In this document: positions 81 through 16,191 of the stretch, one piece after another | Position numbering within the stretch: the stretch's first letter is position 1 | Layout: each line of letters opens with the position of its first letter | Assembly: GCA_001508935.1 (NCBI GenBank) | Contig: LGFQ01000005.1 | Span: 1 to 40,163, forward strand | Direction of reading: 5' to 3' | From: Synergistales bacterium 54_24 | GTDB lineage: Bacteria > Synergistota > Synergistia > Synergistales > Thermosynergistaceae | Length of the DNA stretch: 40,163 bases | Notes under the pieces: generated by a model | What the model saw: only the letters and a program-made list of their open reading frames with translations | Databases searched by the model: none | Told to the model about the DNA's origin: nothing | Translations under genes and position numbers: made by a program

Positions 81-2165
81 TTACCTCGATAGGAGCTTTT
101 CTGCGAGCTCCTTTGGCACCTCTTCGTAATGGCTGAACCGCATGGAGTACACGGCGCGACCGGAGGTCATGCTGCGCAGGTCGGTAGCGTATCCAAACAT
201 TTCAGCGAGGGGCACGAGCGCCTTGATCACGCGCCCATTGCCGCGGACATCCATACTTACGACTTTTCCCCTGCGGGCCACGAGGTCTCCCATGACTTCA
301 CCGAGGTACTCCTCCGGCAACACCACCTCTACCTCCATAATCGGCTCCATCAGGACCGGATGCGCCCTCCTCATCGCCTCCTTGAATGCCATAGAAGCGG
401 CGATCCTGAAGGCCATCTCCGAGCTATCCACCTCATGATAGCTGCCGTCTATCAATTTCACCTTGACGCCGACGACGCGATAACCTCCTAACACCCCTGC
501 AGTTGCGGCCTCTTGGAGCCCTTTCTGCACAGCGGGTATGAACTCCCTCGGTATAGCTCCTCCGACGATGCGATCCTCAAAGACGAAGCCCTTTCCGTCG
601 GGCAACGGCTCCATCTCTATCACAACGTGACCATATTGGCCGCGGCCACCGCTCTGCCTGACGAACTTGCCCTCTACGGGACCGGAGGAGGTGCGTATTG
701 TCTCCGTATAAGCCACCTGGGGATTGCCGACGCGCGCGGACACGCCGAACTCCCTCTTCAGCCTGTCTTGTATGATCTCCAGGTGAAGCTCTCCCATGCC
801 GGATATGATGGTCTGTCCGGTCTCGTGATCCACGGAGACGTGAAACGTCGGGTCCTCTTCGGCCAAAGCCGAAAGCCCCTTAGAGAGTCTTTCTTGGTCG
901 GCCTTTGTAGCCGGTTCCACAGCCAACGCGATGACCGGCTCCGGAAAGGTCAGGCTTTCGAGCAATACAGGGGCCGACGGATCGCAAAGCGAATCGCCCG
1001 TCCGCGTCTCTTTAAGGCCAGGCAGAGCCACTATCATGCCAGCAGACACAGAGCCCAGATCCTCGCGCTTATCCGCCTGCATTCTGAGGATACGCCCCAC
1101 CCGCTCTCTCCTTCCAGTAGTGGCATTGAGCACGGTTACGCCGTTTTCTATGCGACCAGAATAGACGCGAGTGAAGACTAAGCGCCCCACATATGGATCG
1201 ACCATGACTTTGAAAGCTAGGGCAGCGAATGGTTCGTTTATGTCGGGTTTGCGGAAGACGGCTTCCCCCGTGTTAGGGTCAATGCCCTCCACAGGCGGAA
1301 GGTCCAGCGGTGAGGGAAGGTAATCCACCACGGCATCCAAAAGGAGTTGGACCCCCTTGTTCTTGAGGGCCGATCCGCACAAAACCGGCACTATCTTCAT
1401 GCTCGTCGCTCCCTGCTTGATAACGCTCTTAAGGAGATCCTCGGGTATCTCTTGGCCACCCAGATAAAGCTCCATAAGCTCGTCATCAAGTTCTGCCGCT
1501 GCCTCCAACATGGCATCCCTCGCAGATTTTGCCTCTTCCGCCATGGAGGCCGGTATGTCAGCGAAAATGAGCTCCAGGCCCTGTTCGTCTTTATAAAAGA
1601 CAGCCTTCATGCGCACCAAATCCACGATGCCGGTAAAAGCCCCTTCGAGTCCAATGGGTATCTGAACCGGCACGGCATTGGCACCCAAGCGCTCTCTAAG
1701 TTGCTTCACCACGGCATAGAAGTCGGCGCCCACCCTGTCGAGCTTGTTGACGAAGGCGATCCGGGGCACGCGGTAGCGATCTGCTTGCCGCCACACCGTT
1801 TCAGATTGTGGCTCCACGCCGCCTACGGCACAAAATACAGCTATGGCGCCATCCAAGACGCGGAGAGACCGCTCGACCTCCACGGTGAAATCTACGTGGC
1901 CGGGTGTATCAATAATATTGACCATATGTCCCTTCCACCAACACGTAATTGCCGCCGAGGTAATCGTTATGCCTCGTTCTCTCTCTTGTTCCATCCAGTC
2001 TGTAGTGGTTGAACCCTCGTCGACCTCTCCCATCCTGTGTTTCTGGCCTGTGTAAAAAAGTATGCGTTCTGTAGTAGTCGTCTTTCCTGCGTCTATATGA
2101 GCAGCTATGCCGATATTGCGGATGAGGCGCAAATCGACGGCATCTACTGTAGTATTTTGCGCCAT
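81..2165 (-). CDS. fusA: Translation elongation factor G (canonical copy)
   Basis: EF-G is the ribosomal translocase, a cytoplasmic GTPase. At 694 residues it has the normal length. The GTPase motifs are all canonical: P-loop AHIDAGKT near 22-29, switch I ERERGITI near 61-68, DTPGH with the activating His at about 90, and NKLD near 140-143. The domain IV tip motif HEVDSSE is present near the C-terminus. The start follows two copies of GATGGTGA, the second serving as a weak SD. It lies between rpsG and tuf as in other str operons. A second, divergent EF-G is encoded at 29861-31951, so this copy is presumably the main translocase. Confidence 0.98.
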
Positions 2166-2208
2166 ATTCTCACCATCTCACCATCCAACTAAAAATAGAA
2201 ACTAACCA

Positions 2209-2679
2209 TTACCAACGATAATGAGCAAACGCGCGGTTTGCCTCCGCCATCTTATGAGTGTCTTCGCGCTTCTTGGCGGCGCCGCCCTCGCCTTTGTATG
2301 CATCGGCCAATTCCCTGGCAAGCCTCTCTTCCATCGGTATGCCCTTGCGGGCGCGGGCATACTGGATGATCCAGCGTATCGCCAAGCTCTGAGCTCTCTG
2401 CGGATCCACCTCAACCGGCACCTGATAGGTGGCGCCGCCTACCCTCCGAGGCCGCACTTCAACTATCGGCTTGACGTTCTCAAGCGCCTTTTCAAAGACC
2501 TCTTGCGGCGACACATTGAGGCGCTTCGCCGCCTTTTCGAGGGCAGCATATACAACCTTTTCCGCTTTGCTCTTGCCTCCGTCCCACATGACTGAGTTTA
2601 TCATCTTAGAGAGAGCGGCGTTTCCGTAAACTGGATCTGGATTTGCACTCCTTTTCCTTACCGATCCTTTTCGTGGCAT
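2209..2679 (-). CDS. rpsG: 30S ribosomal protein S7
   Basis: S7 nucleates assembly of the 30S head and in many bacteria represses the str operon. The 156-residue product has the family's length and typical stretches: [10 protein letters not shown] at the N-terminus, [14 protein letters not shown] in the middle, and a [20 protein letters not shown] ending. The ATG at 2679 has an SD (AGGGGGAGC) six to eight bases upstream. It lies 16 bases after rpsL and 43 bases before fusA, so the genes are almost certainly co-transcribed. I did not identify an S7-binding leader. Confidence 0.98.
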
Positions 2680-2695
2680 TCAATGCTCCCCCTCT

Positions 2696-3067
2696 CTACT
2701 TCGGCTTACGAGCGCCGTACTTAGATCGCGCTTTTTTGCGCCCGTCGACGCCACCGCAGTCGAGGGCACCTCTAACTATGTGATAACGAACGCCAGGCAG
2801 ATCCTTGACGCGACCACCGCGTATAAGGACTACGGAGTGCTCCTGTAAGTTATGCCCGATGCCTGGAATATAAGAGGTCACCTCGATTCCGCTCGTCAAG
2901 CGAACGCGCGCAACCTTCCTGAGCGCCGAGTTGGGCTTCTTTGGCGTCACAGTATACACCCTCGTGCAGACACCCCTGCGCTGAGGGTTACCCTGAAGTG
3001 CAGGGGCCCCCGAACGGGCCTTTTTCTCCTCTCGCCCCTTGCGGACGAGCTGATTAATCGTTGGCAC
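2696..3067 (-). CDS. rpsL: 30S ribosomal protein S12
   Basis: S12 sits at the decoding centre of the small subunit. The frame is open further upstream (TTG at 3085, ATG at 3076), but those codons overlap or abut the SD AGGAGG. The GTG at 3067 lies nine bases after it and gives the classical N-terminus [12 protein letters not shown], so GTG is preferred and yields 123 residues. The streptomycin-relevant stretches [11 protein letters not shown] and [12 protein letters not shown] carry the wild-type lysines. The gene follows the L7Ae-like gene by 24 bases. Confidence 0.96.
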
Positions 3068-3091
3068 AGAACTCATCCTCCTCAAATATAG

Positions 3092-3340
3092 TTACGCTTT
3101 GCGAATTCCTGCTGCCGCTGTTTTACACTGTACCGCACAGGCTCTCCCTAAGAGCTTCATGGAATCAGCCCATTCCACCATAAGCGACTGCCTTTGAGCT
3201 TCTACCAATATCGGTTGCACTAACGAGGGATCCGCATCGCGTGCCAAAAACACCTTCTCGAGCTCCCCCGCCAGAAGCTTTTTATATACCTGTCTTGCCC
3301 CCACCACGCAGCGCGGTGTGGCCAGATCGCCTAAGGGCAC
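3092..3340 (-). CDS. L7Ae/YbxF-type RNA-binding ribosomal protein
   Basis: This small protein of the L7Ae/L30e/S12e/Gadd45 family resembles the YbxF-type protein found between rpoC and rpsL in Firmicutes. Family members bind kink-turn RNA. Visible features are VVGARQVYKKLLAGELEKVFLARDAD and the later VEWADSMKLLGRACAV. The frame extends to a TTG at 3406, but that TTG forms the -35 box of a promoter and has no SD. The GTG at 3340 has AGGAG seven bases upstream and gives 82 residues, the usual size. The name is from homology; the exact ribosomal role is uncertain. Confidence 0.88.
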   Translation of the reverse strand: MPLGDLATPRCVVGARQVYKKLLAGELEKVFLARDADPSLVQPILVEAQRQSLMVEWADSMKLLGRACAVQCKTAAAGIRKA

Positions 3341-3377
3341 AACAAAACTCCTTCCTCTCGCCCCATCGCACCGACGG

Positions 3378-3406
3378 ATGATAGCAACAGACTCAAGTGC
3401 TGTCAA
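3378..3406 (-). promoter_or_regulatory. Sigma-70-type promoter for the str operon
   Basis: On the reverse strand TTGACA (3406-3401) is followed by exactly 17 bases and then TATCAT (3383-3378). Transcription would begin near 3371, about 30 bases before the GTG of the L7Ae gene. It lies just downstream of the rpoC stop, so rpsL-rpsG-fusA-tuf can be transcribed independently of rpoBC as well as by read-through. Confidence 0.75.
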
Positions 3407-3422
3407 GGGCGGAAGTAAATTT

Positions 3423-6400
3423 TTAAGCTACAGAGATAACTCTTCCTTCTCGAAGCTCTCCCTCTTCTTTCCCAGGAGCCTCCCCGACTGCAGAGACCTC
3501 TATCTTACGATACGCCTCGACTCCCGTTCCGGCTGGGATCAAGTGCCCAATAATGACATTTTCTTTAAGGCCTCGCAAGAGATCGATATCGCCCCTCACG
3601 GCAGCGGAGGCCAGTGATTGAGCGGTCTGCTGGAAGGAAGCCGCGGACAAGAAGCTTTCGGTCGCCAAAGCGGCCTTGGTGACACCCAAAACCACCGGTT
3701 TCCATTGTGGCTCCTCCCTCAACCTTCGCACAAACGAAACGCGCTGTATTATGCGCTCAAGCCTCGACTGGGCGTAAATGGGGCGCAAGACCAACTCCTG
3801 AGGCTCCGCTGCCACCAACTTGTCCACGATCTCCTGGTTGATCTCTCGCCCAGCCTCTACCACTACATCTCTCAACGCGCCATACACTGGCTCGAGCAAG
3901 ACCTTTCCGTAGGCTATCTCGTTGAACAGCTCTTTGAGGATCCCCTCGCGCGAGAGCACCTTCCCTTCCACTTCTATAGCGATGATGTTCCCCTCGATGA
4001 TGCCTCTCACTATGCTCCCATCCACTATGCTGGGCGCGTCGGCCATCAGTTCACCCGAAGCGGTTATAACGCGCGACAACGGATGACCCCATATTTGAGC
4101 GATGAGATATTCTTGCATACGGTCCACCACGTTGATCACTTCAGGGGCATACCATACCTTAATCTCGGCGACATCGGCGCTGCGCAAGCTCTGGAGGACG
4201 TCCGCAGTGAGCAGCCGGTCGCGATGAGCGAGCACCTCTCCATCGACAACCACATCTGCCGCGAGATAAGCCTTATCGCAAAGAGCATCGAGGCGCTTGA
4301 CATCGCGAACTAAGATGGGCCGTTGAGATAACTGAGTAATCAAGTTCAACTGCGAAAGCCTCAAGGGCACACCGGCATCTATATGGTGCCCAACTTCATC
4401 GCCAAAGGGCTCTACCAGTTCGAGCCCTTCCATTTCCCTCCGGAAGGAGGCCTCACCCACGATCACCCGTAAGAGCCCCTCTCGGTCTTCCACGAGCAGT
4501 TCGCTAACGGCACTGCCAGGTCGCAGTATTTGGCGAAGGACATCGCGGCTTAGGTTTTCCCCTTTGAACTGCAGAGCGCCCTCGAGTCCACCGGTGCCCA
4601 TGACATCCCTCAAAACAGAACCTTCAAGCAGTTCTTCTGCCTCTGTAAGGTAGCGTTCGTTATCGCGACGGATCTCTTCGATTTCCTTACAGAGATCGTC
4701 CATCCACGCCAATTCACCCGCGACAAAGGAGCTATCGCCCTCTTCTATTATTCGAACTCTGTTTGCAGGGGCAACCTTGCGGAGTATAACCTCGATGTGC
4801 TTGTTGTTTATAGATACCCCCTGAGACCTATATTCCTCTTGGATATTGTCGAGCAAATAGCTCTGCACTGCGGAGAGGCCTTTGACCTCCAACAGCTTTT
4901 GAGGATCGACATAACCCTCCGTAAGGACCTGGCCTCGCTTTACTGCGCTTCCCTCTTCCACCACGATGCTTTGGTTGGATGGGATAGTATAAGTCGCATG
5001 CTCGCCCCCATCGCTCGAGTGAACGACGATCTTTCTCTTGCCTTCCATCTCCCTTATTTCGGCGACGATCCCATCTATCTCCGAAAGAATGGCCTCTTTC
5101 TTCGGCTTCCGCGCCTCAAAAAGCTGCTCTATGCGCGGCAAGCCTTGTGTAATATCTTCGCCCGCCATATGAACGCCACCCGTGTGGAAAGTCCTCAGCG
5201 TAAGCTGTGTGCCGGGCTCACCGATGGACTGAGCAGCCACGACGCCCACGGCCTCGCCTATAGAAACCAGCTCCTGCATCGACAAATCGAAGCCATAGCA
5301 CTTTCGGCAGATGCCATAACGGAGACCACAGGTCATAGGGCTACGGATCCACACGCCTTCGATGCCGGCCTTCTCGATCGCCTCCGCTGCCTCCTGAGAT
5401 ATGAAGTCACCCTGGGCCACGATAAGCTGTCCGGTCTTCGGATCGAAGACGTCCTTAAGGGCAGTCCTCCCGTATATCCTCTCGCTCAGCGAAATAGCGA
5501 CCTTGCCGTCCTGGACGAAGGCGCTCATGTAGATTCCATCCGTCGTCCCACAGTCATCAGCTACGATGATCAGATCTTGGCCGACGTCAACCAGACGGCG
5601 CGTGAGATAGCCTGATTTTGCGGTGCGCAGTGCCGTGTCGGCAAGCCCCTTTCTGGCACCATGGGTCGAGATGAAGTACTCGAGCATGTTCAACCCTTCG
5701 CGGAAATTGGCCGTTATCGGATAGTCTATGATGCGCCCAGAAGGATCGGCCATGAGACCTCTTATGCCGGCCATCTGTGCGAGCTGGCTCTTGCTGCCCC
5801 GTGCTCCAGACTCGACCATAAGCTTAAGCGGATTGGCATCGTCCATGTCCTCCATTATGTGATCTGCAATGCGCCTCGCCGCATCGGACCAGAGCAGCTC
5901 TTTTTGTCTCAAATATTCTTCCTCTGTGAGCACGCCCATGCCGTATTGGTTATAGAGCTCTTCTTCCTGAGCCAAGATCTCTTTGACGATCTTGTCCTTC
6001 TCGGGCGGAATGACTACGCTGTTGACGTTGAAGCTCGCGCCGGAATTGGTGGCCCATCGGAAGCCCAGAGCCTTCACGGCATCCAACATCTGCACCATCG
6101 AGGAGTGTTCGACTTTGTCGTGAGCCACCTCAAAGAGCCTGCTGATGGCCTTTTTATCGAGCCTCTCGTTGATAAAAGGCAGTTCAGCCGGCATCGCACT
6201 GTTAAACAAGACCCTTCCAGGCGACGTCTCTATCCATTCTCCATTATTCAAGAGGAACTTGATTTTGCTGTTTATATGAACTATGCCATGATCCAACGCC
6301 GAGAGGACATCGTCTGTATCCTTGAAATACATACCTTCGCCTTTGAGACCGCCCCTCATGCCGGTGAGATAGTATATACCGAGGATGATGTCTTGAGTCG

Positions 6401-12121: not shown

Positions 12122-12209
12122 TGGTGTCGAGGGGGGGACTCGAACCCCCACAGGCGCATTGCCCACTAGAGCCTGAGTCTAGCGCGTCTACCTGTTCCGC
12201 CACCTCGAC
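12122..12209 (-). tRNA. tRNA-Leu, anticodon CAG
   Basis: The reverse strand starts GTCGAGG, pairs perfectly with CCTCGAC at the 3' end, then has discriminator A (12125) and an encoded CCA (12124-12122). The D-arm GCGGAACAGGTAGACGC, a 5-bp anticodon stem CTAGA/TCTAG around loop CTCAGGC (anticodon CAG, reading CUG), the long variable arm expected of a leucine tRNA, and the T-arm GTTCGAGTC are all visible. It is 88 nt including CCA. It lies directly upstream of rpoB in the same direction. Confidence 0.95.
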
Positions 12210-12417: not shown

Positions 12418-14592
12418 GTGAAGGAGATGAAGATCCTTTCAGAATGGGCATACAGCCCTTGCGAGCCCTACAGGGGGTACACCGGGAAAACCCTTTACGT
12501 GAACGTGGGCAACTTAAAGTTCGCAGAAAAAAACGTCACGGAGGAAATGAAAGAGAAGTTCGTAGGCGGGCGGGGCTTCGGCCTCAAGCTCCTCTGGGAT
12601 GCAGTGAGAGATGAGACGAGGTGGAACGACCCAGAAAACGAGATCGTCATATCGGGCGGCCCGCTCTGTGGCATAACGCAATATCCGGGCTCGGGCAAAT
12701 ACTATGCCGTTTTCATATCCCCCTTGACGGATCAGACATACGACAGCAACTCGGGCGGACACTTCGCGCCACTTCTCAAGTTCGCTGGCTGGGATGCCTT
12801 GGAAATCCAGGGTAAGGCAGAAAGGGACGTGATCGTCTTCATCGACGGAGATGAAGGGAAGGTCCAAGTATTGGAATCGCCCTTTAGGGACATCAACGCT
12901 CATTCTGTAACCGAGGAACTTCACGAGCGCTTCGCGGCATCTGAAAAGGATAAGCGTTTCATCTCCGTCATCGCCACGGGCAAAGGCGCCGAAAACACAT
13001 ACTTGGGATGCCTAAACACGAGCTTTTACGACGCTCGCCGCGGAATAGTCCGCCTAAAACAGGCGGGGCGCGGAGGCGGAGGCACAGTGCTTCGCGACAA
13101 AAAGATCGCGGCGATCGTCGTGCGCAAGCACGGATGGTCAGGCATGAGCAACAATCCCGCAGACCCGGAGACCATACAGAGGCTTGGGCTGAAGCTCCAC
13201 AAGGAGATTTACGAGCTCGACGACAAGCAAAGCCGCATGAGGCGCGTGGGGACCGTCCATTTGAACGAAATTATGAACGACTACCATCTCCTTCCCGTGC
13301 ACAATTATAAGTTCGGCCAGCATCCTGAGGCAAAAAACATACACTCAACAATATACGAAAAGATGTTCACCCAAGGTATACCGGACGGGTGTTGGTACGG
13401 TTGCACTATGGCGTGCTCCAAGGCGATAGATGGATTTACCCTCAAGACCGGACCGTGGAAAGGTCGCACCGTGTCCATAGACGGGCCGGAATACGAGACC
13501 TGCGCAGCCTTGGGATCCAATATAGGCGTCTTTGATCCGGAATGGACCGCCGAAGCGGCATTTTACGCCGACTTCTATGGCATCGATACCATATCATTGG
13601 GCACCAGCCTGGCATTCGTGTGCGAATGCTACGAGCTCGGTTACTTGAACGAGGAGACGACCGAAGGGCTCAAGCTCGGTTTCGGGAAGGCCGAGGCGCT
13701 GATGGAGTTGATCCACCGCATAGGCGAAGGAAGGGGCGAATTTGCCGCCCTTGTGGGAAAGGGCATCCGCAGGATGAAAGCGGCCTTCGCCGAGCGCTTT
13801 GGCGCACCACGAGAGATCTTGGAAGCGATAGGCATGGAAGGACAAGGCATTGAGGTATCCGAATACGTGTCTAAGGAATCGGTCGCCCAATGGGGCGGGT
13901 ATTTCTTGACGCTCAAAGGGCCGCAGCACGACGAAGCATGGCTCATCTTCATGGACATGGTCAACAGACAACTGCCGACGTTCGAGGACAAAGCCGAGGC
14001 GCTCCATTACTTTCCTAACTTCCGCCTCTGGTTTTCCCTGGCGGGCCTCTGTAAACTGCCCTGGAACGACATAGAACCTGAAGATAACCTCACAAAATAC
14101 CCACCTCAGGAGGCCGCGAAGGTGCCGGAGCACGTCCAAAACTATGTAGATCTCTTCAACGCGATGACCGGGAAGAAAATCGACAAAGCGGAATTGATCC
14201 TACAGTCTGAGAGGGTCTACAACTTTCAGCGCGTCTTCCAGCTTCGCCTCGGAAAGGGCACCCGAAAAGACCACAGCATCCCGTTGCGCGCAATATCGCC
14301 GGTATTCAAAGACGAATGGGAAGCCAGGCGCGATTATTACGATGAACAGCTCCGCTCTTCAGGTGTGGACCCGCAGGGACTTTCGACGGAAGAGAAGATC
14401 AAAAGGCTCCAAGAGCTGCGGCTTGCCCAATGGGAGAAGCTGGTGGACGCTGTTTACAGGCGGCGCGGATGGGACAAAAACGGCATTCCCACCGTCGAAA
14501 AGCTCGAAGAGCTCGGGATGGATTTTGAAAGCGTCGTCGCGGTCGTAAAAAAACATACCCGTAAGGAGGACCAGTGGGAGGAAGACCTGTGA
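12418..14592 (+). CDS. Aldehyde:ferredoxin oxidoreductase-family tungsten/molybdenum enzyme
   Basis: AOR-family enzymes oxidise aldehydes (or reduce acids) with ferredoxin, using a W- or Mo-bis-pyranopterin and a [4Fe-4S] cluster. The N-terminal domain shows FVGGRGFGLKLLW (48-60) and the pterin-binding GPLCGITQYPGSGK (81-94) plus DSNSGGHFAPLLKFAGWDAL (109-128). A second glycine-rich block, AGRGGGGTVLRDKKIAAIVV, follows at 216-235. Likely cluster cysteines are C325, C329, C333 (CX3CX3C, rather than the CX2CX3C I recall for Pyrococcus AOR) and C545. At 724 residues it is about 100 longer than classical AOR, mostly at the C-terminus. No signal peptide, so cytoplasmic. GTG start with good SD. The substrate is not predictable. 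Confidence 0.92.
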   Translation: MKEMKILSEWAYSPCEPYRGYTGKTLYVNVGNLKFAEKNVTEEMKEKFVGGRGFGLKLLWDAVRDETRWNDPENEIVISGGPLCGITQYPGSGKYYAVFISPLTDQTYDSNSGGHFAPLLKFAGWDALEIQGKAERDVIVFIDGDEGKVQVLESPFRDINAHSVTEELHERFAASEKDKRFISVIATGKGAENTYLGCLNTSFYDARRGIVRLKQAGRGGGGTVLRDKKIAAIVVRKHGWSGMSNNPADPETIQRLGLKLHKEIYELDDKQSRMRRVGTVHLNEIMNDYHLLPVHNYKFGQHPEAKNIHSTIYEKMFTQGIPDGCWYGCTMACSKAIDGFTLKTGPWKGRTVSIDGPEYETCAALGSNIGVFDPEWTAEAAFYADFYGIDTISLGTSLAFVCECYELGYLNEETTEGLKLGFGKAEALMELIHRIGEGRGEFAALVGKGIRRMKAAFAERFGAPREILEAIGMEGQGIEVSEYVSKESVAQWGGYFLTLKGPQHDEAWLIFMDMVNRQLPTFEDKAEALHYFPNFRLWFSLAGLCKLPWNDIEPEDNLTKYPPQEAAKVPEHVQNYVDLFNAMTGKKIDKAELILQSERVYNFQRVFQLRLGKGTRKDHSIPLRAISPVFKDEWEARRDYYDEQLRSSGVDPQGLSTEEKIKRLQELRLAQWEKLVDAVYRRRGWDKNGIPTVEKLEELGMDFESVVAVVKKHTRKEDQWEEDL

Positions 14593-14786
14593 TCTCCGTA
14601 AACGGTGAAAGCATGAAATGGCATCCAGGGATGACCGTGCGAGAAATCCTGGATGCCAAGCATTATACCTTCCCCATGATAGCCGTATGGATAAACGGCA
14701 CTCCTGTGCCTCGCGATCGGTTTGACGAAACGGAAGTGCCGGACGGGGCAAACGTGCAAGCCGTTCACATGATAGGGGGCGGGTAA
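14589..14786 (+). CDS. ThiS/MoaD-like ubiquitin-fold sulfur carrier
   Basis: This 65-residue beta-grasp protein (MISVNGESMKWHPGMTVREIL...) ends in IGGG, the C-terminal glycines that are thiocarboxylated in ThiS and MoaD. The GTG at 14589 overlaps the TGA of the AOR gene (GTGA) and has GGGAGG seven bases upstream. An earlier in-frame GTG at 14574 is possible but less well placed. The overlap implies translational coupling and suggests that it supplies dithiolene sulfur for the AOR pterin cofactor (inference). A thiamin role (ThiS) cannot be excluded, since no thiamin genes or MoaE are nearby. Confidence 0.85.
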   Translation: MISVNGESMKWHPGMTVREILDAKHYTFPMIAVWINGTPVPRDRFDETEVPDGANVQAVHMIGGG

Positions 14787-15577: not shown

Positions 15578-15621
15578 GAATTTTTGAGGAAAATAAAATA
15601 ATGCCGATAGGAGGGAACATC

Positions 15622-16191
15622 ATGGTCCCCTTTGTTCTGCAATCTTCCAAGTCTCAGCTGCTTTTGGTGGACATGCAAGAGAAGTTACTGCCTGCGATGC
15701 AAAATAACGATGAAATCGCAAAGAATGCCAAAACCCTTTTGAAGGCGGCCGACCTCTTGGGCATACCCGTGAAATATACGGAGCATTACCCCTCAGGATT
15801 GGGCCCAACAGCAGAAGGAGTTCGTCAGGCCTTGCCCCCCAGTTCGATACGTTTCGAAAAGGTCCACTTTTCTTGCTGGGCGGAGGCCGGCTTTGCCGAT
15901 TTCATCCGCAACGGAAGCCGCGACCAAATCGTCATGGCTGGCATAGAAAGCCACATCTGCGTCTTGAGCACCGCCTTGGATTTGTTGAAAGAAGGTTATC
16001 AGGTTGCCATCTCGCTCGACGCCGTCGGAAGCCGCAGGTCGCATCACCACGAAAGTGCTCTCAGGGCCCTTGCTTCGGCTGGCGCCTTAGTGGTCCCAAC
16101 AGAGACGATCATTTATCAGTGGCTCGCCCGAGCGGCCACAGAGGCTTTCAGGGCAATGCTCCCCTATTTTAAGGGAGAGGTCTCGAAGTGA
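15622..16191 (+). CDS. Isochorismatase-family cysteine hydrolase
   Basis: The 189-residue product belongs to the isochorismatase-like family (nicotinamidase, YcaC and related amidases). The catalytic triad is visible as D17 (LLLVDMQ), K80 (FEKVHFSCW) and C113 (GIESHICVLSTALDL), the last in the usual nucleophile context after a cis-peptide-type turn. The ATG at 15622 is chosen because AGGAGG lies seven bases upstream; an ATG at 15601 precedes the SD. It is the first gene of a three-gene run joined by GTGA overlaps. The nicotinamidase metal-site motif is not evident, so the substrate is unknown. Confidence 0.9.
   Translation: MVPFVLQSSKSQLLLVDMQEKLLPAMQNNDEIAKNAKTLLKAADLLGIPVKYTEHYPSGLGPTAEGVRQALPPSSIRFEKVHFSCWAEAGFADFIRNGSRDQIVMAGIESHICVLSTALDLLKEGYQVAISLDAVGSRRSHHHESALRALASAGALVVPTETIIYQWLARAATEAFRAMLPYFKGEVSK

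Follow-up and report, generated by a model that had tools for sequence, protein, structure and literature searches.

The gene pair and its surroundings

The window (the whole stretch of DNA analysed, 40,163 nt) carries on its plus strand an AOR-family (WorL-type) oxidoreductase gene at 12418-14592, with a GTG start and a product of 724 aa, followed by a ThiS-like sulfur-carrier gene (WorX type) at 14589-14786, with a product of 65 aa ending in HMIGGG. The two genes overlap (ctGTGAtc): the carrier GTG at 14589 shares four bases with the AOR stop, whose TGA is at 14590-14592. The Shine-Dalgarno sequence of the carrier, GGAGG at 14577-14581 on the plus strand, lies within the AOR reading frame, seven bases before the GTG. 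Both the overlap and this ribosome-binding site had been reported in the preliminary description and were confirmed. An alternative in-frame GTG at 14574 would give a product of 70 aa; the relatives begin at the equivalent of 14589, and the GTG at 14589 is the likely start.

The relatives are the best 80 of at least 554 confirmed AOR stretches. They come from many phyla and share 55-71% identity with the window gene. The window and these 80 relatives form the 81 loci, or subfamily members, referred to below.

Upstream of the AOR gene, a tRNA-Leu (12122-12209) and an ORF of 1199 aa, which reads as rpoB (named by eye), lie on the minus strand. WorS-type ORFs occur in 35 of the 81 loci (by clustering), directly upstream of the AOR gene in many Synergistaceae relatives, and the one checked (L006) has four Fer4 stretches in Pfam. 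Beside the window AOR, however, no such ferredoxin-like WorS gene was found: the gap between rpoB and AOR holds no plus-strand ORF of at least 70 aa, and the window was absent from the best 30 rows of a WorS tblastn search. The window thus fits a Class I WOR with WorX, i.e. a WorL without WorS and with a ThiS-like gene nearby.

Downstream of the pair lie a minus-strand hypothetical ORF and then an isochorismatase-family gene at 15601-16191. Members of both clusters are also found behind the AOR gene in L006, L007 and L012. No Moco riboswitch was found in the window, the moa cluster of the host or five further loci (Rfam, gathering threshold).

The AOR product

The AOR product matches the Pfam families AFOR_N (173 bits) and AFOR_C (320 bits), and a phmmer search of the PDB returned nine AOR-family chains of 604-653 aa with 83-161 bits. 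Its AlphaFold model (pLDDT 87.7, pTM 0.91) matches seven AOR-family structures with Z scores of 34-42. Closest is the FOR of Pyrococcus furiosus (Z 41.6, rmsd 2.2 over 598 residues, 29% identity), followed by the electron-bifurcating AOR 9mqx (40.7), PfAOR (40.6) and, lower, BamB (34.1).

Eight residues are invariant in all 81 members: T279, E358, Y483, H504 and the cysteines C325, C329, C333 and C545. In the alignment to PDB chains, the first four correspond to T243, E313, Y427 and H448 of PfAOR, which are described as conserved in most aldehyde-oxidising members (PMC13328260). The codons of C325, C329 and C333, the expected [4Fe-4S] ligands in a CX3CX3C motif, span 13390-13416 on the plus strand, and that of the fourth cysteine, C545, is at 14050-14052 on the same strand. 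As the active-site residues and cluster cysteines are invariant, an AOR-type active site is expected.

The five PDB alignments inspected show CX2CX3C instead, relative to which CX3CX3C is a one-residue insertion. The preliminary description had called the length of 724 residues and the CX3CX3C spacing unusual. Both features are present, but unusual they are not within the subfamily: the cysteine columns are invariant in 81 of 81 members and the spacing itself, searched with a regular expression, is found in 80 of 81. Spacing and length therefore appear to be subfamily traits, neither due to chance nor peculiar to the window gene. By sequence, CX3CX3C reads as a spacing variant within the AOR/WOR family and involves no defining loss.

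The host genome has three other AOR genes, all with CX2CX3C. One of these, on host contig C125 (L093, about 394-5504), follows NuoF/G-like and 4Fe-4S ORFs (named by eye), an arrangement resembling that of the electron-bifurcating Class IV WOR.

The carrier

The carrier matches Pfam ThiS with 31.8 bits (cut-off 22.5) and the NCBIfam model TIGR01683 (thiS) with 50.3 bits (curated cut-off 37.45). Its predicted model (pLDDT 92.6) is closer to ThiS 1zud (Z 11.3) than to MoaD 1fm0 (Z 8.0), so that the prediction for this GG-tailed protein is a beta-grasp fold of the ThiS type. Among 38 AOR-linked carriers, N5, H60, G64 and G65 are invariant. The window protein and its host thus combine traits of the sulfur-carrier family: the predicted beta-grasp fold, the C-terminal GG and an E1 in the genome.

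All 38 of these carriers match TIGR01683, and the scores obtained for six of them, the window carrier and those of five relatives, all lie above its cut-off. Automatic naming would therefore call them thiamin ThiS, and, since they pass in genomes where no ThiG was found, this is a warning for annotation.

A tree of 73 carriers, built from a short alignment, places the 58 AOR-linked ones in one group, which also takes in a single second-copy carrier (support 0.42). Six thiG-linked ThiS proteins stand beside this group (support 0.73, same short alignment), and MoaE-linked MoaD and other MoaD-like proteins are placed elsewhere. Because the alignment is short, the separation of the AOR-linked carriers from thiG-linked ThiS and from MoaD is only suggestive.

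Conservation of the pairing

A carrier lies near the AOR gene in 58 of the 81 loci, the window counted, and these are spread across phyla. In 51 loci the carrier is downstream on the same strand: seven overlap the AOR gene, 23 follow at 0-35 nt, 13 at 36-220 nt and eight beyond 600 nt. In the other seven it is divergent and upstream of the AOR gene. Given the number of paired loci, the overlaps and the short distances, the coupling is more than chance. An E1 gene is present in 14 of the 81 loci, every one with a carrier.

The pairing is not universal. Where the flanks extend 1 kb or more in both directions (56 loci), the carrier was found in 43 loci and not detected in 13. L005, the closest relative among the matches listed, has no carrier within 1.5 kb downstream of its AOR gene. 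The loci with a carrier are distributed over the whole AOR tree, a point in favour of the pair.

In clostridial relatives (L064:1250-4974 and similar), genes for Fer2_4, Pyr_redox_2, SO_alpha_A3/BFD and DAO proteins precede a ferredoxin-like gene, the AOR gene and the carrier. The domains were confirmed by Pfam for the L064 operon, and 12 loci were recognised by clustering of the Pyr_redox protein. This set is sarcosine-oxidase- or amine-dehydrogenase-like and, possibly as a dehydrogenase of amines or amino acids, might supply the AOR with an aldehyde.

Cofactor and thiamin genes

Cofactor and thiamin genes were searched in 50 genomes, the host itself plus the genomes that carry 49 of the 80 relative loci, chosen for their longer loci; most are MAGs. 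The first pass of the profile search is lossy: the PF02597 search of the host missed the window carrier itself (31.8 bits in hmmscan), so negative results of the genome searches are not absolute.

The MoeB/ThiF-like activating enzyme anticipated in the preliminary description was found, as a single E1 (ThiF/MoeB family) in the host genome. Across the 50 genomes with a window-type AOR, 47 have an E1. A host cluster (L096) encodes MoaA, MoaC, two MoeA proteins (one with PF12727) and one MoCF_biosynth protein. In Desulfovibrio vulgaris, moeA and moeA-2 (one with PF12727) are both reported to be needed for the tungsten cofactor of AOR, and this species has a moaE (PMC10102598). The host has at least three further ThiS/MoaD-family proteins besides the AOR-linked carrier, and its genome gave no match to PF01568 (DMSO-reductase family).

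The profile search of the host found no full-length ThiG, only partial matches (24 and 19 bits), and just six of the 50 genomes have a full-length one. The reading of the carrier as a genuine thiamin ThiS, beside the AOR gene only by chance, is very improbable and was rejected: the profile matches and nearest folds of the carrier are those of ThiS, but no full-length ThiG was found in the host, the linkage to AOR is conserved and the thiG-linked ThiS proteins form their own group, albeit with low support.

Scarcity of MoaE

MoaE, the enzyme that usually introduces sulfur into the metal cofactor, was also sought on the suggestion of the preliminary description and was not found by profile search in the host genome, which is 93% complete. 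Among the 50 genomes with a window-type AOR, 44 have MoaC and seven have MoaE; 37 have MoaC without MoaE. The same holds for the phylum: in a sample of 120 genomes with a completeness of 85% or more, MoaC was found in 84 and MoaE in three, all three with MoaC, so that 81 of 84 MoaC-bearing genomes show no MoaE. In the controls, the same 11 of 14 named genomes were positive for MoaE and for MoaC. Moreover, MoaE was not found in six genomes of cultured species or strains (Alkaliphilus, Fervidicola, Fervidicella, Anaerosolibacter, Desulforadius and Desulfotruncus). The scarcity of MoaE in the host lineage is the unexpected part of the analysis and the part worth following.

Similar gaps are in print for single genomes or groups. 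For acetogens, a cysteine desulfurase was guessed as the substitute (PMC5039349); for Geobacter metallireducens, the step was called unexplained (PMC2700814); and for Dehalobacter, MOSC proteins were proposed as a replacement (PMC4751268). A survey of MoaE absence across genomes was not found in the limited portion of the literature searched.

Several candidates for the missing step were tried. That the carrier simply stands in for MoaE is not supported, because a carrier remains beside the AOR gene in six of the seven genomes with MoaE (L022, L032, L034, L044, L064 and L065, but not L069). Furthermore, 27 of the 37 genomes with MoaC and without MoaE have DMSO-reductase-family genes (counted with PF01568, a profile of this family only), and AORs are therefore not the only enzymes there for which pterin is made.

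Four of the 50 genomes (L116, L117, L118 and L119) encode a diverged MoaE-like protein, 129-135 aa long and scoring 31-35 bits with PF02391. A search of all 50 with this separate type returned the same four and two rows with E values of 0.06-0.07, taken as chance, so that a hidden MoaE of this kind was not found in the others.

Nor did a conserved unknown gene beside moaC emerge as a replacement. In 20 clustered moaC neighbourhoods, three of them without a moaC label, the recurring neighbours were MoaA, MoeA, MogA-type and MOSC proteins; MOSC was confirmed by Pfam in L102, L105, L106 and L115. Beside moaC in the Synergistota loci L096:6754-7599 (host contig C148) and L097:7528-8355 lies a protein with about 110-120 N-terminal residues that match no Pfam family, ahead of a MoCF_biosynth domain. 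It occupies the place where other lineages have MOSC and is a candidate for the missing MoaE step.

Proposed role of the carrier

We consider it likely that the pair consists of an AOR-family oxidoreductase (WorL) and a dedicated ThiS-like carrier (WorX type) that supplies the dithiolene sulfur of its metal-pyranopterin. An AOR-dedicated sulfur carrier follows from the conserved linkage, the weakly supported grouping of the carriers apart from others, the presence of MoaA, MoaC, MoeA and one E1, and the missing ThiG. The E1 would adenylate the GG tail of the carrier, and a cysteine desulfurase would convert the tail to a thiocarboxylate. The carrier would then donate sulfur for the dithiolene in the metal-pyranopterin of this particular AOR, which is its most likely target. 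Coupled translation would yield carrier and apo-enzyme together. The most likely reaction of the AOR itself is the oxidation of an aldehyde, with the electrons passed to ferredoxin, and its metal is probably tungsten.

Some points speak against this reading: the 13 of 56 well-flanked loci and L005 without a carrier, the missing MoaE and the other ThiS/MoaD-like proteins of the host. As MoaE was not detected in the host, another protein would have to take its place in the acceptor step of the proposed scheme.

Alternatively, the carrier could be shared by all pyranopterin enzymes of the pterin pathway and stand beside AOR only for co-expression. The single E1 of the host, the DMSO-reductase-family genes in most genomes with MoaC and without MoaE, and the partial redundancy of the ubiquitin-like proteins (Ubls) of Thermococcus kodakarensis (PMC11323500) would fit such a carrier. 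However, the host has other MoaD-like proteins, the AOR-linked carrier is kept in most MoaE-bearing genomes, the three whose MoaE is canonical encode a further MoaD next to it, and in T. kodakarensis one tungsten enzyme depended mainly on a single Ubl (PMC11323500). We regard a shared carrier as unlikely.

A more specific scheme, which we hold to be improbable, concerns MoaE-free anaerobes of the Synergistaceae type and others. The co-translated carrier would dock on its own apo-AOR and sulfurate bound cPMP there, the AOR acting as its own 'MoaE' with no canonical MPT synthase. The authors of the T. kodakarensis study raised the possibility that sulfur reaches MPT once the apo-cofactor is bound to its target protein (PMC11323500), and in-situ sulfuration would tie this idea to a lineage in which MoaE was not found.

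The chance is slimmer still that the carrier acts on the AOR in another way, by providing the metal with a sulfur ligand or by ubiquitin-like conjugation to the enzyme. T. kodakarensis Ubls do form conjugates with specific targets (PMC11323500), and the carrier stays linked to AOR even where MoaE exists. Nevertheless, Ubl deletions in this archaeon lower MPT derivatives, which points to pterin synthesis (PMC11323500).

What makes the locus valuable is its setting, with MoaE undetected in 81 of the 84 sampled phylum genomes that have MoaC and in 37 of the 44 that combine MoaC with a window-type AOR. The pair and a single E1 are a compact set, which makes the dithiolene question testable in a reconstituted system.

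Comparison with known systems

The interpretation in the preliminary description, that an AOR is coupled to its own sulfur donor, was right in outline and is partly supported. The carrier is a Pfam ThiS match with a ThiS fold by model, its adjacency to AOR is conserved across phyla rather than lost in relatives, and an E1 is present in a host where no full-length ThiG was found. The outcome named there as refuting, a carrier that clusters with thiamin ThiS and whose place beside AOR is not conserved, was thus not seen. The idea itself goes back to a 2006 publication (PMC1779556), in which Iyer, Burroughs and Aravind reported, for a scattered set of lineages, MoaD genes immediately next to AOR and in many cases accompanied by MoeB; they suggested that these genes take part in WCo synthesis. 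The window shares with these a carrier adjoining AOR. Their carrier was called MoaD, whereas that of the window is nearer to ThiS by profile and fold, and the relevant passages of their paper make no tie between the AOR-adjacent carrier and a missing MoaE. Archaeal links between ThiS and AOR have also been described (PMC2948915).

Putumbaka et al. (2026) named the ThiS-like neighbour of WOR WorX and predicted a role in pterin biosynthesis (PMC13328260). Their systems have in common with the window a large AOR subunit and a small ThiS-like gene nearby; the CX3CX3C spacing of the window AOR did not turn up in a text search of that paper. A further difference is that many relatives in the subfamily also carry a WorS gene, which was not found in the window. 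The AOR operon aorABCDE of Aromatoleum aromaticum likewise holds MoaD-like maturation genes, aorD and aorE (PMC6365974). That enzyme, however, has three subunits, is NAD-linked and has a large subunit of 616 residues with CX2CX3C, in contrast to the 724 aa and CX3CX3C of the window AOR.

Neither a biochemical test of the window-type AOR subfamily nor a direct test of the AOR-carrier pairing in bacteria was found in the part of the literature searched. The nearest functional evidence is from T. kodakarensis, where deletion of the three Ubls, one at a time or combined, reduced both MPT derivatives and tungsten-enzyme activities in sulfur-poor medium (PMC11323500). UblC (TK1065) is paired there with the AOR TK1066, and UblB is the main Ubl for GOR, so that these carriers too are beside or specific to tungsten enzymes, with genetic evidence. 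They differ in that TK1065 and TK2118 belong to the MoaD family and the enzymes are different, archaeal AORs, while the window carrier is ThiS-like. By analogy, the deletions support such a role of the carrier.

Hence, the pairing of AOR and carrier was already known. What the analysis shows is its conservation in a distinct CX3CX3C subfamily, a new member of that known kind, whose host lineage seems to be without MoaE.
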